A stretch of 64,000 bases of DNA, from the NCBI RefSeq assembly GCF_000311845.1, contig NZ_HE978574.1:772201-836200 (forward strand), read 5' to 3'. The number at the start of each line of letters is the position of its first letter. The first letter of the stretch is position 1. The notes beneath the pieces were generated by a model. The model was given only the letters and a program-made list of their open reading frames with translations. It did no database searches and was not told the origin of the DNA. This DNA is from Enorma massiliensis phI. Its GTDB lineage: Bacteria > Actinomycetota > Coriobacteriia > Coriobacteriales > Coriobacteriaceae. The position numbers and the translations under genes are program-made. Positions 5,519 to 53,884 of the stretch are shown here, piece after piece.

Positions 5519-5782
5519 CTAATTTCGCTAGAGGAGCCGCCTCTGCCCGTTGCGGGAAATGGCCCCGCTGCTTCCTTTTGTGGGGTGATGCCCGCAGGGG
5601 TAGGTCGTGTGCTGGCATCTCGTCGTTGTGCCCACCGCGCGGTGCGATGCCGCAAAGCGGCGAACCCCCGAGCGCGCAGCATCCCATTATTGTGCCCCAC
5701 CGCACAGGGCGATGCCGCAAAGCGGCGAGCCCTCCAAGCCCTCGCCATGTCCCATCCAGCCCAATCGCGCAGCCCGCACGCA
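5519..5782. repeat. Intergenic region with a tandem GC-rich direct repeat
   Basis: This gap lies between convergent ruvB and the cold-shock gene. A segment beginning TTGTGCCCACCGC near 5626 and containing GATGCCGCAAAGCGGCGA recurs about 60 bases later, near 5688 (TTGTGCCCCACCGC...GATGCCGCAAAGCGGCGA). Each copy includes a small palindrome, GCCGC-AAA-GCGGC. I see no coding capacity that looks real. Confidence 0.5.
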
Positions 5783-5881
5783 GGGGCGCTCCCCCGTTTC
5801 TCCTGCGCAGTTTCGCAGAAAGGCCCAGCAAAGCTGGGCCTTTCGAGAATGTATGAGCAAGGAGAAACGGGGGAGCGCCCC
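5783..5881 (-). terminator. Two-helix 3'-end element, copy 1 (after cold-shock gene)
   Basis: A perfect 22-bp outer stem (5783-5804 with 5860-5881) encloses a 12-bp inner hairpin (5818-5844, loop AAA). Read in the direction of the cold-shock gene, the inner helix is flanked by TGCTCATACATTCTCG and CTGCGAAACTGCGC. The same two linkers recur at 12.2 kb and 48.6 kb around different helices. The outer arm starts 15 bases after the gene's stop. It probably acts as a terminator or 3'-end stabiliser. Confidence 0.7.
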
Positions 5882-12108: not shown

Positions 12109-12141
12109 ATGAGACACTTAGACCCGGCACAAGTGTCTCAT
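12109..12141. repeat. TGAGACA palindromic repeat, copy with compensatory change
   Basis: ATGAGACACTT and AAGTGTCTCAT form an 11-bp perfect stem around AGACCCGGCAC. Copies near 53.8 kb have CAGTT/AACTG in place of CACTT/AAGTG, so the pairing is kept while the bases differ. It sits 25 bases after the ferredoxin stop. Confidence 0.7.
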
Positions 12142-12202
12142 TCAAGGATGGCTGCCATGCGAGGGGGAATCCCCGCCGCGAGTGCAAGGCCGTCCGCAGG
12201 GC

Positions 12203-12294
12203 GGGGCCATATGCTCCCGGCGCAGTTCCGCAGAAAAAGAGCCCCATCGGGGCTCTTTTTCGAGGACTGTTTGAGCACGGGGGCATATGGACCC
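12203..12294 (-). terminator. Two-helix 3'-end element, copy 2 (after MetRS)
   Basis: The outer stem (12203-12220 with 12278-12294, about 16 pairs with small defects) encloses an inner hairpin AAAAAGAGCCCC-ATC-complement (about 12234-12261). Read along the MetRS gene, the linkers are GTGCTCAAACAGTCCTCG and CTGCGGAACTGCGC, matching copies 1 and 3. It begins about 20 bases after the MetRS stop. Confidence 0.7.
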
Positions 12295-12314
12295 GGCCCG
12301 CCGGGAGGACGCCC

Positions 12315-30274: not shown

Positions 30275-30302
30275 GCCGTTCTGGGTCATTCTGGTCATTC
30301 TG

Positions 30303-30375
30303 GGACGGGTTTGTTTTGACTCGTTTTGACCCCGCTCGCGAATGAGTCAATATGGGACGGGTTTGTTTTGACTCA
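30303..30375. repeat. TGAGTCA/GGGACGGG repeat (one full, one partial copy)
   Basis: A full 33-bp copy, TGAGTCAATATGGGACGGG continuing to TTTGTTTTGACTCA, occupies 30343-30375; its ends TGAGTCA/TGACTCA are inverted. A partial copy GGGACGGGTTTGTTTTGACT begins at 30303. The same family recurs at 31268, 34587 and 47643. Confidence 0.8.
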
Positions 30376-30455
30376 TTCACAGCGATAGCTCAAGACGGCC
30401 CCGTCTCAAAACGGTAGTCTCAAAACGGCGCGATTTCGGCGCGAGCGAAGCCGAT

Positions 30456-31124: not shown

Positions 31125-31234
31125 AGCTTGTCCCTTTGTGGCTCGCCGAATGTCCCTGCGGCACCAGTATGGCTCTTCGTATGGCGCGTGCCGCTGAGTA
31201 TCGCGTCAAAATGCTTTGACATATCGGTCATTCT

Positions 31235-31300
31235 GGGACGGGGTCATTTTGACCCGCCCGCTGCGAATGAGTCAAAACAACCCCGTCCCATATTGGCTCA
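31235..31300. repeat. TGAGTCA/GGGACGGG repeat at the end of the LUD gene
   Basis: A full copy lies at 31268-31300 and a partial copy (GGGACGGGGTCATTTTGAC) at about 31235-31253. The TGA that ends the LUD protein is the first codon of the full copy (minus strand, TGAGCCA). Confidence 0.75.
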
Positions 31301-31948
31301 GTAGCCGAGGTCCTCCCCGATGAGCACCACGCGGATGCGTCCATCGTGGCGGCTGTGGCGCGTGACCACCACGTTGCAGCACATGCAGCGCTCTGCATGG
31401 CATTCCGAACAGACGCCCGCAACCTCGCATGGCGTGTTGGTGTGCAGGCGCGCGGCATTGAGCGGGCAGGTCACCGTTCGAATGCGCTTGATACCGGCTT
31501 CCACGTCTGCCACGAGCTTGTTCATCCCTGCGAGCACCACCACGTGCGCGGGGCCGTGCAGAAGGAGCGACAGGCGGTCGGAGTTGCCGTCGATGTTAAC
31601 GAGCTCACCGTTCAGCGTGAGGGCGTTGGCGCTCATAAAGAACCAATCCGCCGAAGTGCGGTTGCGCCACATCTCGCGTTGTTCCTCGGGCGTGGTTGCG
31701 GTGGTGCGGTCGAGCATGCGGTAGCAGCCCGCGTTCTCGAGAGTCGCCTTCATGCCGGTTTCCTTGAACGTCTCGCTGCCGCCCCAGGTTACGGAGTCGC
31801 CTTCGTGCATCCAGGAGCGCACAAGCTCCACGGCCTCGGCGCTCGTGGCGCAGAAATGTCCCTGCATGCCATGGCGCTCGAGTTTCTTGATAACGGTCGA
31901 TGCGGTGGTGCGATATGCTGCGAGTGCGGTTTCGGTGCTTTTGGCCAT
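31298..31948 (-). CDS. LUD-domain protein (LutC/YkgG-like)
   Basis: This 216-aa protein has the LUD fold found in lactate-utilisation proteins and in stand-alone forms: GDSVTWGGSETFKETGM, NALTLNGELVNIDGNSDRLSLLLHGPAHVVVLAGMNKLV (in parts) and CPLNAARLH. Unlike LutC it ends with a Cys-rich stretch, CEVAGVCSECHAERCMCCNVVV, which could bind metal. The start at 31948 follows AAGGGAAG. The stop codon lies in an intergenic repeat. No lutA/lutB genes are nearby, so the enzymatic role is open. Confidence 0.82.
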   Translation of the reverse strand: MAKSTETALAAYRTTASTVIKKLERHGMQGHFCATSAEAVELVRSWMHEGDSVTWGGSETFKETGMKATLENAGCYRMLDRTTATTPEEQREMWRNRTSADWFFMSANALTLNGELVNIDGNSDRLSLLLHGPAHVVVLAGMNKLVADVEAGIKRIRTVTCPLNAARLHTNTPCEVAGVCSECHAERCMCCNVVVTRHSRHDGRIRVVLIGEDLGY

Positions 31949-34524: not shown

Positions 34525-34586
34525 GCTGCCTCCCCGGGGTCGGCGCCTGCATACCTTGTTGCTGATATACCCAAACGGGTCAAAAC

Positions 34587-34639
34587 GGGACGGGGTTGTT
34601 TTGTGCGCGTGCAAAACAACCCCGTCCCATTTTGACTCA
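34587..34639. repeat. TGAGTCA/GGGACGGG repeat as a 17-bp hairpin at the CotH stop
   Basis: GGGACGGGGTTGTTTTG (34587-34603) and its exact complement (34612-34628) form a 17-bp stem with loop TGCGCGTG. TTTTGACTCA follows. The CotH stop TGA (34637-34639, minus strand) is inside the TGAGTCA end. Confidence 0.8.
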
Positions 34640-36037
34640 CTCCAGGTCGGAGAGCTCGCCCATGTCTTCGATGTGGATGGACGAGGCGTCTACGAGCGTA
34701 TCGGGGGCTGCGATCTGCCCTTCGAGGGTGCTTGGGATATGGCCGTCTAGTTGCCCGCGGATGCTCTGGGCGCGAAGCAGGCAGAACGCCTCAAGGGTAT
34801 CCACGCCCAGCTGGAAGTCCTCGAAACTAATAAACGCCGTGGGATCTTCTGCGACATAAGGAGCGATGAGCTCCTCTGCCTGGCGCACCGTCGTCTGCAG
34901 GCGCCCACTCTCCACGTAATCCTGTACGAGCTCGTCAAGGTAGCCGTGGTAGTGTTCGCGGTAATCGCCGTGAGCCATGAGGTTGGTGAAGAGCGGTCGC
35001 TCGGCAAGCACCTCGGGTGCTGCCGGCGTATCGATGGGCAGGTTCACGTAGGCGCTGGCATCGTCCGGCAGCTCAGCTCGTCCGAGGGCGTAGGTGCCGA
35101 AGGCCAGGTTATAGTCCCAGGGGAGCATCGCCAGGCGTCCGTCCTCCTCGTAAAGGAAGTAGTTGTGGCCCGTGCTTCCCAGGTAGCTGTCGAGATTCGC
35201 CACGAAGGTCTGCACGGCGAAGTACCTCAGCACCTCATCGACGTCCACTGAGCGCTCGATCTCGTCGCGCTCTCCTGTGGCCAGCGCCTTGAGTGCGTCT
35301 ACCACGCGCTTTTCGTCCACCGCCGTCGCATCGAAGCGAGCGCTTTCGAGGATTCCCGGGTAGGATGCGGGGTCGTCGTTCACGTAGCGCAGTGCCACAT
35401 CGGCGTTTTCGTCATCGAGAGAGCGGTAGTCGGGTTTGTAGAGCATGCCGTGCCCCTCGCCCCATACGCGCTCGGCGAAGGCATCCTCCGGCTCCTCGAT
35501 GGCAAGGAACAGCCCCCAGGCCTCGCCGTTAACGCTCACCTGCACAAAGCTCGTTGCGGGCGTAGGGACACCCATGAAGCGCATCATGTCGAGGGCGAGG
35601 TAGGTCTTAAGGTAGCTGTTGTCTTGGAAGGATGCGTCGAGCGAGAGTTTGTCCAGGCCGTGGTAGGTGAGCCCCGTATCGAAGTGATCGAATTCGATCT
35701 TGAGGCTGTAGCGCGAAAGCCCACGCTCTGCGATGTGCCCGAGCGAGTTGTTCCCCTTGGCGCGCAGCCCCACCCCTGTGAACGTCTCGCCATCGATCGC
35801 CACGTCGCACCGGGAATAGCTCTCGGTCGTCGCGGTGGCGAGGAAGGCGTCCCAATCATCAATCTGGATGTCGATGCTGTGCACGCGATCCTGCTGGAAG
35901 AGCAGGTCGAGGTAATCGTCGTCGCGTGCGGGTGTGATGATGCCCGCCACGCCGGCAGCGTAGAGTCCGCCGGTGAACAGGATGGCGCAGGCGAGTGCCG
36001 CGATGCAGACGGCGTCGATGAAGCGCGACCCGAGCAT
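34637..36037 (-). CDS. CotH-family protein kinase-like membrane protein
   Basis: This 466-aa protein has an N-terminal membrane anchor (about 8-30) and an extracytoplasmic CotH domain. Family features are visible: GVGLRAKGNNSLGH (the RGN-type loop before the ATP site), YSLKIEFDHF (lysine), KLSLDASFQDNSYLKTYLALDMM, and LAMLPWDYNLAFG with the catalytic/metal Asp. CotH proteins are atypical secreted kinases that phosphorylate serine-rich proteins. It follows the DUF4956 gene by 4 bases. Its stop lies in an intergenic repeat. Spore formation is not expected in this lineage, so it should act at the vegetative cell surface. Confidence 0.85.
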   Translation of the reverse strand: MLGSRFIDAVCIAALACAILFTGGLYAAGVAGIITPARDDDYLDLLFQQDRVHSIDIQIDDWDAFLATATTESYSRCDVAIDGETFTGVGLRAKGNNSLGHIAERGLSRYSLKIEFDHFDTGLTYHGLDKLSLDASFQDNSYLKTYLALDMMRFMGVPTPATSFVQVSVNGEAWGLFLAIEEPEDAFAERVWGEGHGMLYKPDYRSLDDENADVALRYVNDDPASYPGILESARFDATAVDEKRVVDALKALATGERDEIERSVDVDEVLRYFAVQTFVANLDSYLGSTGHNYFLYEEDGRLAMLPWDYNLAFGTYALGRAELPDDASAYVNLPIDTPAAPEVLAERPLFTNLMAHGDYREHYHGYLDELVQDYVESGRLQTTVRQAEELIAPYVAEDPTAFISFEDFQLGVDTLEAFCLLRAQSIRGQLDGHIPSTLEGQIAAPDTLVDASSIHIEDMGELSDLE

Positions 36038-45258: not shown

Positions 45259-45353
45259 GGAAGGCCCCGAGGGTTCCTGCGCGTGTGGTCCTCGCTGTTC
45301 GGCGGAGCCGAACAGCTGCGGGAAACACGCTTCGGAACCCCTCGGGGCCTTCC
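45259..45353 (+). terminator. Divergent two-helix 3'-end element after PTS operon
   Basis: A 19-20-bp outer stem (45259-45277 with 45334-45353, one bulge) encloses CTGTTCGGC-GGA-GCCGAACAG (45295-45315). The linkers are TGCGCGTGTGGTCCTCG and CTGCGGGAAACACGC. GTCCTCG and CTGCGG match the minus-strand copies at 12.2 kb, while GCGTGT/ACACGC add a third helix. A partial repeat GCGGGAAACACGCTCCGGAA follows at about 45391. Confidence 0.6.
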
Positions 45354-46957: not shown

Positions 46958-47680
46958 CTAAAGGACCCGGTCGATTTCGGCGGCAAGCGCACGGGTCGCT
47001 GCCGGGATATCGTCGGCTGCGAAGATGGCGGAGACCACGGCGGCGCCATCGACGCCGGTATCGGCGAGCACATCGAGTGTTCCCGCGTGCAGGCCACCGA
47101 TGCCCACGACGGGGATGCTCACGGTGCTGCAGATCCGCGCGAGCTCGTCCTTGGTGACATCGACCGCGTCCGGCTTGGTGGGCGTGGGGATGAGCGCCCC
47201 GACGCCGAGGTAGTCCGCACCGGCTTCCTCGGCGGCACGGGCCTCCTCGACTGTCTGGGCAGAGACGCCGACGATGGCATCCGGTCCCAAGATGCGGCGC
47301 GCCTCGGCGCAGGCGGTGTCGCTTTGGCCCACGTGCACGCCGTCTGCGCCCGCGAGCTTCGCGGCCTCGACATCGTCGTCGATGAGGAAGGGAACTCGGT
47401 GGGCGCGGCAGATGGGAATGATGGTCTGGGCAAGCCCAACGATTTCCTCGGTAGAGGCGTGCTTCTCGCGCAGTTGCACGAAGGTCGCGCCGTTTTCAAC
47501 CACCTGCTCTACACACTCGGCGAGCGTGCGCTCGCCGAGCCAGGCGCTGTCGGTTACGGCGTAGAGGTGCATGCCGCGGCGGATATCTTCCGGCGACCAT
47601 GGCCCGCGCGAACAGGGGGCCTTTGTGGAGCATTCGGGGCTATGAGTCAAAACAGACCCGTCCCATATTGACTCAGCCAT
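46958..47680 (-). CDS. thiE: Thiamine-phosphate synthase ThiE with repeat-encoded N-terminus
   Basis: This 240-aa TIM-barrel enzyme joins HMP-PP and thiazole phosphate. Key motifs are LYAVTDSAWLG, VQLREKHAS, FLIDDDVEAA, GVHVGQSD, VGVSAQT and the phosphate loop IGGLHAGTL. The ATG at 47680 has GGAGCTC upstream and follows the thiM stop by one base. The first 36 residues precede the usual start region, and codons 2-13 are encoded by a copy of the TGAGTCA/GGGACGGG repeat (47643-47675). An internal ATG at 47572 (MHLYAVTD) would remove the extension but has a poor ribosome-binding site. Confidence 0.88.
   Translation of the reverse strand: MAESIWDGSVLTHSPECSTKAPCSRGPWSPEDIRRGMHLYAVTDSAWLGERTLAECVEQVVENGATFVQLREKHASTEEIVGLAQTIIPICRAHRVPFLIDDDVEAAKLAGADGVHVGQSDTACAEARRILGPDAIVGVSAQTVEEARAAEEAGADYLGVGALIPTPTKPDAVDVTKDELARICSTVSIPVVGIGGLHAGTLDVLADTGVDGAAVVSAIFAADDIPAATRALAAEIDRVL
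47643..47675. repeat. TGAGTCA/GGGACGGG repeat within the start of thiE
   Basis: This full 33-bp copy ends in TGAGTCA and TGACTCA and reads GGGACGGGTCTGTTTTGACT on the minus strand. It begins three codon positions after the thiE ATG and stays open in the thiE frame, giving AESIWDGSVLTHS. Confidence 0.8.
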
Positions 47681-48615: not shown

Positions 48616-48709
48616 GGCCTAGGCCTATACCTCCGCGCGCAGTTTCACAGGGAGTTCGGCTCTGCCGAACTCCCGAGAATGTTTGAGCACGGAGGTATAG
48701 GCCCAGGCC
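48616..48709 (-). terminator. Two-helix 3'-end element, copy 3 (after thiC)
   Basis: A 20-bp outer stem (48616-48635 with 48690-48709, one mismatch) encloses GGGAGTTCGGC-TCT-complement (48650-48674). Along the thiC transcript the linkers read GTGCTCAAACATTCTCG and CTGTGAAACTGCGC, as in copies 1 and 2. It starts 10 bases after the thiC stop and may separate thiC from thiM. Confidence 0.72.
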
Positions 48710-48719
48710 CTTTGCTTTG

Positions 48720-53778: not shown

Positions 53779-53884
53779 CGGCACGATTGTCTCACGCTCA
53801 GCGGGAGATGCGCGGCAGTATGAGACAGTTTAACCCGGCACAACTGTCTCACATGAGACAGTTTAACCCGGCACGATTGTCTCA
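53779..53884. repeat. TGAGACA palindromic repeat array (two full copies and a half)
   Basis: Full copies lie at 53821-53851 and 53854-53884: TGAGACAGTTTAACCCGGCA then CAACTGTCTCA or CGATTGTCTCA. A half copy CGGCACGATTGTCTCA is at 53779-53794. The first copy has a 10-bp perfect stem. Core CCCGGCAC is shared with the copy at 12.1 kb. Confidence 0.75.

Follow-up and report, generated by a model that had tools for sequence, protein, structure and literature searches.

A long palindromic element with a conserved bulged core and nearly free stem sequence at bacterial gene ends

The attC sites of integron cassettes form a folded hairpin just behind the stop codon, usually oriented with the gene, in which conserved unpaired bases are combined with a terminal stem of variable sequence. 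REP sequences and BIMEs are situated for the most part between genes that are co-directional or convergent, and they occur in inverted pairs (PMC3733652). Sequence similarity is the usual way to find repeat families, and covariation the usual way to find structured RNAs. The element described here is nearly invisible to the former approach and misleading to the latter.

The window (the whole 64-kb stretch of DNA that was analysed) contains four copies of the element (Table 1). All of them share one plan, in which an outer stem is followed by a conserved bulged core, an inner hairpin and the strand that closes the core. The original prediction had proposed such an architecture behind three minus-strand genes. 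The position given for its first copy is exact, the hosts are confirmed as the genes of a cold-shock protein (csp), MetRS (metG) and ThiC (thiC), and a recurrent paired architecture with conserved linkers at gene 3' ends is supported. The elements were said to start 10–20 nt past the stop codon, which is close to the about 9–15 nt measured for these three copies. Copy 4 was missed at that stage and was found by a structural scan based on the core strands, the inner hairpin and the outer arm. The linkers are near-identical, as predicted, but not fully identical: copy 2 carries TGCTCAAACAGTCCTCG (one base longer) and CTGCGGAACTGCGC, and copy 3 carries CTGTGAAACTGCGC, in distinction from copy 1. 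Linker matches by themselves are within chance expectation for 64 kb, while linker, inner hairpin and outer arm together, found four times in the window by the structural scan, are beyond chance; the same scan of both strands of a reversed, non-complemented control sequence gave no elements. The RNA fold of copy 1 has an energy of -84.2 kcal/mol (z = -10.9). Inside the stem, the inner hairpin ends in T3 in copy 1 and in T5 in copy 2, and the terminator scan, run on these two hairpins, flagged neither; copy 3 has no U-tract. Directly downstream of copy 1, two near-identical 37-nt copies with CGATGCCGCAAAGCGGCGA are located at 5631-5667 and 5696-5732.

Table 1. Location of the four copies in the window and of the structural parts of copy 1.
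Feature	Position	Strand	Remarks
Copy 1, whole element	5783..5881	-	15 nt past the stop codon of the cold-shock gene
Copy 1, outer 5' arm, 22 nt	5860..5881	-	paired with 5783-5804
Copy 1, 5' core strand, conserved	5844..5859	-	TGCTCATACATTCTCG
Copy 1, inner hairpin	5819..5843	-	AAAGGCCCAGC-TTT-GCTGGGCCTTT; A/T ends, terminator-like
Copy 1, 3' core strand, conserved	5805..5818	-	CTGCGAAACTGCGC
Copy 1, closing arm, 22 nt	5783..5804	-	
Copy 2, whole element	12196..12301	-	behind MetRS (metG); inner hairpin ends A5/T5
Copy 4, whole element	45259..45353	+	behind PTS IID gene; variant core GTGTGGTCCTCG / CTGCGGGAAACAC
Copy 3, whole element	48616..48710	-	behind thiC

The core, as we read it from the listed sequences, is 5'-GC UCARA CAG (U) X1X2 U CG-inner-C U G C X2'X1' AA CUG C GC-3'. 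X1X2 is CC, UC, AC, UU or CU, each with matching partners, so that the core pairs X1 and X2 covary (C-G/U-A/A-U). Smaller forms of the core (L266, L280, L330) are devoid of the U.C mismatch and the bulged U and keep UCARA and AA. A second subtype, GCTGGTCCTCG / CTGCGGAATCGC, is represented by roughly ten copies in the window's own genome. The stems range from about 20 bp to well over 50 bp and are almost free in sequence, most arm positions showing all four Watson-Crick pairs across copies. In several copies a hairpin with A/T tracts is nested within the outer stem, and a U-tract is often absent from the elements. The loops of short inner hairpins (e.g. L066, L067, L074, L083) are mostly TNC closed by C-G. 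On the opposite strand these are C(GNA)G loops, which we take to be of the very stable DNA mini-hairpin type. In Eggerthellaceae GTC or GTCC stands directly outside the outer stem in 21 of 33 copies, as compared with GTCC in 2 of 86 copies elsewhere (counted by slightly different criteria), and may be a lineage-specific foot. A presumable resemblance of ACAGUCC / UGCUCARACA to the hairpin ribozyme or to boxA was rejected because there are core variants without these bases.

A covariance model built from seven own-genome copies gave 30 matches at about 25 distinct places in the 2.28-Mb genome. A search of relatives with this model, similar to the one proposed along with the original prediction, gave matches in 34 of 60 genomes. 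The strict pattern CAGTCCTCG-N(9-36)-CTGCGGAACTG is present in 28 out of 248 genomes of the class, and its matches in the GTDB collection include Collinsella, Olsenella, Adlercreutzia, Slackia, a Bdellovibrionales MAG, Omnitrophota, Myxococcales and Hydrogenedentota. Near-exact cores with long perfect stems were found in Eggerthellaceae, Atopobiaceae, Bdellovibrionales, Omnitrophota, Myxococcales and Hydrogenedentota. Nearly all GTDB matches carry the outer GTGCTCRRA / CGC linkers and long perfect stems unrelated to each other, and about ten matches without outer linkers and long stems are due to chance. No paper describing the element was found in the literature by core sequence or taxon, the one match to the core 12-mer being a PCR primer. 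Apparently, we are dealing with a large and undescribed family of long DNA hairpins.

In the Bdellovibrionales MAG HKST-UBA12 (L104, L113, L169, L200, L240) about 17 copies were seen. Their inner hairpin is almost constant, and the arms measure from about 50 to over 100 bp; the outer ends share GGTGCCTGACACTTTTTCCAGTCCCTA in several copies and GTCTCAnnnTGA in others. The unrelated arms of 45–80 bp in a Bdellovibrionales MAG prompted the idea that arms are inverted copies of an insertion target. It was dropped because in several copies the arms proved to be related to each other though diverged, with mismatches retained and both the outer and the inner ends conserved. A phage element was rejected as well, with one match in the viral collection, and so was an autonomous cargo-bearing transposon, the partial cores being variants or decayed copies. 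No partner enzyme was found beside the elements in distant phyla, where the neighbours belong to housekeeping families only.

The gene neighbours of 96 elements were called with our own codon-usage gene finder. Sixty-five elements are forward, i.e. behind a stop codon at a median distance of about 13 nt, and 31 are reversed and lie upstream of a gene. Divergent intergenic regions, which make up about 23% of the intergenic length, contain none of the 96 elements, versus about 22 expected, and a tail-to-tail arrangement was seen for 27 of 28 neighbouring copies. At the csp site an intact copy is present in the window genome only (nine genomes read); the relative G001 has kept the inner hairpin with decayed arms, and G002, which belongs to the window's genus, and G007 have ordinary U-tract hairpins, so that gain and decay are seen at this site. 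At the metG site none of the 21 other relatives read has an intact element. The thiC site is occupied in 8–9 of 19 genomes compared, always in the same orientation. These occupancies mean that elements are gained and lost, yet able to persist.

Covariation of the stems, the check suggested by the original prediction, is overwhelming. The model alignment has 108 distinct rows and includes a few palindromes for a second time, as matches on their reverse strand. In this alignment 94.9% of the cells are paired, compared with 67.8% after shuffling and 34–48% after sliding, double-sided changes occur at 33 of 37 pairs, and the covariation score is 0.530 versus 0.136 for the shuffled control; fitting of the alignment to the structure biases these values towards the structure, though the margin is very large. 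As a signature of a conserved RNA, for which the covarying stems had been taken, this result does not hold cleanly. A helix selected as RNA should contain more G.U than A.C on the transcribed strand. The outer arms contain 30 G.U and 32 A.C (15:13 within the model and 15:19 beyond it), or 12:18 if each context is counted once, i.e. A.C is tolerated as often as G.U. For 42 ordinary terminators of the same genomes the ratio is 32:6 (p = 2e-5), which differs from that of the outer arms with Fisher p = 0.0003, on modest counts from related sequences and copies that are not independent. Besides, in both orientation classes the mRNA strand folds less stably than its complement, by 2–3 kcal/mol on average. 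What the covariation seems to mirror is a palindrome maintained at the DNA level. One outer-arm position, about fifth from the core (A3 columns 15/170), is A.C in 58 of the 108 copies, G.T being absent from it; this directional position is outside what the DNA-palindrome explanation accounts for.

Arm changes between relatives were counted at orthologous sites on the model columns; 77 of them are double-sided and 26 single-sided. At the dut site (L285 versus L291, L308 and L310) about 10 bp are replaced on both arms, and the surrounding arm and the core are unchanged between near-identical flanks. For L059 versus L060 at site A, identity is 93% in the flanks and 78% in the element; the palindrome interior differs and both arms are shortened. 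Comparison of L293 with L285 shows two members of a pair apparently swapped relative to the flanking genes, and the sequences would be consistent with an inversion. For most orthologous copies the conservation of the element is similar to that of its flanks (mean 88% versus 84–91%), hence block exchange is occasional. It was shown that single template-switching events during replication generate perfect stems and keep them perfect (PMC8794818). This mechanism explains the homogenised arms, but neither the preserved core mismatches nor the site A changes, which are well above the flank rate and for which exchange between copies would be the simpler explanation.

Our preferred reading, to which we assign a little less than an even chance, is a DNA palindrome at gene ends that is read by its structure and has an inner hairpin able to serve as a bidirectional terminator. 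Each copy would represent a DNA palindromic unit just outside a gene, in which a sequence-free outer palindrome brackets the asymmetric bulged core and an exchangeable inner hairpin. Folded DNA, either as a cruciform or as a single-strand hairpin, would be the form that matters in the cell, with a putative protein reading the bulged core. Copying or exchange of the arms as DNA, by template switching and conversion between copies, would keep them perfectly palindromic. The unit would mark the 3' boundary of its gene, and an inner hairpin with A/T-tract ends may double as a bidirectional transcription terminator. In this respect the original prediction of a new terminator class or another 3' role is partly retained, being likely for the inner hairpins of some copies and losing covariation as its RNA argument.

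The reading of the original prediction was an RNA element, namely a new terminator class or an mRNA 3'-end stabiliser with a protein bound to the bulged core in the 3' UTR. Such an element would well account for the short distance to the stop codon (median 13 nt), the exclusion from divergent regions, the strong covariation and the constant orientation at the occupied thiC sites (8–9 of 19 genomes). The excess of forward copies, about two thirds of the total (65 versus 31), is also expected of an mRNA 3' element and counts against a DNA palindrome; the directional A.C position together with the strand-asymmetric fold may indicate that one strand is more important than a pure palindrome predicts. 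We nevertheless consider an RNA element doubtful, since the arms are not enriched in G.U over A.C, the fold is better on the complementary strand in either orientation class, about a third of the copies are reversed and lie upstream of genes, and both arms can be replaced as a block. In addition, a nested A/T-tract hairpin, if terminating, would stop the transcript before the outer arm closes, and the closing arm would never be transcribed.

Patchy spread over phyla, tail-to-tail pairs with an apparent swap within one of them, replacement of the whole interior at site A between kept flanks and the existence of decayed copies are features of the kind expected from a recombination or transposition site. 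It would act as folded single-strand DNA of attC-like or REP-like type, its arms being regenerated by a putative recombinase or nuclease at each event. We regard this as improbable: no recombinase or transposase adjoins the elements in distant genomes, no element lies within about 1.5 kb of 12 Y1 (RAYT) transposase loci, the attC R boxes RYYYAAC ... GTTRRRY occur in 0 of 108 elements, the partial cores include no autonomous or cargo-bearing version, and viral contigs gave one match only. It is very hard to believe that the element is a functionless mutational by-product, i.e. a long perfect palindrome that template switching has made out of an ordinary terminator. The process can create and maintain perfect stems (PMC8794818) and fits the concerted arm changes, but the asymmetric core with its fixed mismatches is conserved across phyla and not homogenised, which requires selection or copying of the core.

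The DNA palindrome of our preferred reading could even belong to a new kind of genetic element that extends over several phyla, is recognised by its bulge geometry and is copied, exchanged or inverted at gene ends by a dedicated putative protein; this broader proposal is speculative and we hold it rather unlikely. Covariation alone is no proof of RNA function, and the wobble-versus-A.C comparison provides a way to tell RNA helices from DNA palindromes. The element points to a putative hairpin-reading protein common to unrelated bacteria and acting at the ends of housekeeping genes.

Other repeats were observed in the window. A separate 32-nt palindromic repeat, ATGAGACAGTTTAACCCGGCACAACTGTCTCA, is located at 12109-12140, 53820-53851 and 53853-53884; a repeat of this type adjoins a Y1 (RAYT-like) transposase gene elsewhere in the genome (L347, about 1950-2035), and it looks like the REP family of this enzyme. 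One further family of dispersed repeats, with GTCATTCTGGGACGGGTTTGTTTTGACTCGTT and ATGAGTCAAAACARNCCCGTCCCATATTGRCTCAG, is found at 30294-30377, 31227-31301, 34579-34640 and 47642-47676; it is REP-like, with inverted copies close together.

With attC the element has in common a folded-DNA-like hairpin behind the stop codon, mostly oriented with the gene, conserved unpaired bases and a terminal stem that varies in sequence. It differs from attC by the long variable outer stem outside the conserved part and by its hosts, which are housekeeping genes and not cassettes. Intrinsic terminators are likewise situated behind genes, and part of the copies have inner hairpins with A/T tracts; in contrast to these Rho-independent terminators, the element possesses a long outer stem with conserved bulges and strand-symmetric arms, and the U-tract is often missing. 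Conserved loops and covarying stems are reminiscent of the structured RNAs of Rfam. In agreement with the suggested novelty, no transposon linkage was found, and neither the window nor 20 related loci gave an Rfam match at the gathering score; below this score there are weak matches only, far under the curated scores and mostly to microRNA-type hairpins.

REP, BIME and REPIN sequences resemble the element as dispersed imperfect palindromes which avoid divergent promoters and often form inverted pairs (PMC3733652), and their placement is reproduced here (0 of 96 elements between divergent genes and a tail-to-tail arrangement of 27 of 28 neighbours). However, REP stems are 6–13 bp long, have a family-specific sequence, GTAG or CGTC tags and frequent G.T pairs, whereas the stems of the element are long and free, with no enrichment in G.T. 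A stem sequence common to the copies, as in REP, is absent, and terminal GTAG and CGTC are at background level (9 and 18 of 108 elements versus 14 and 38 of 214 control sites). An origin from RAYT/REP was rejected; Y1 transposases are present in the own genome, and one locus that was read adjoins the GAGACAGTT repeat. The best reading is that of a REP-like DNA palindrome which is defined by structure rather than by sequence and would set a boundary at the gene 3' end.
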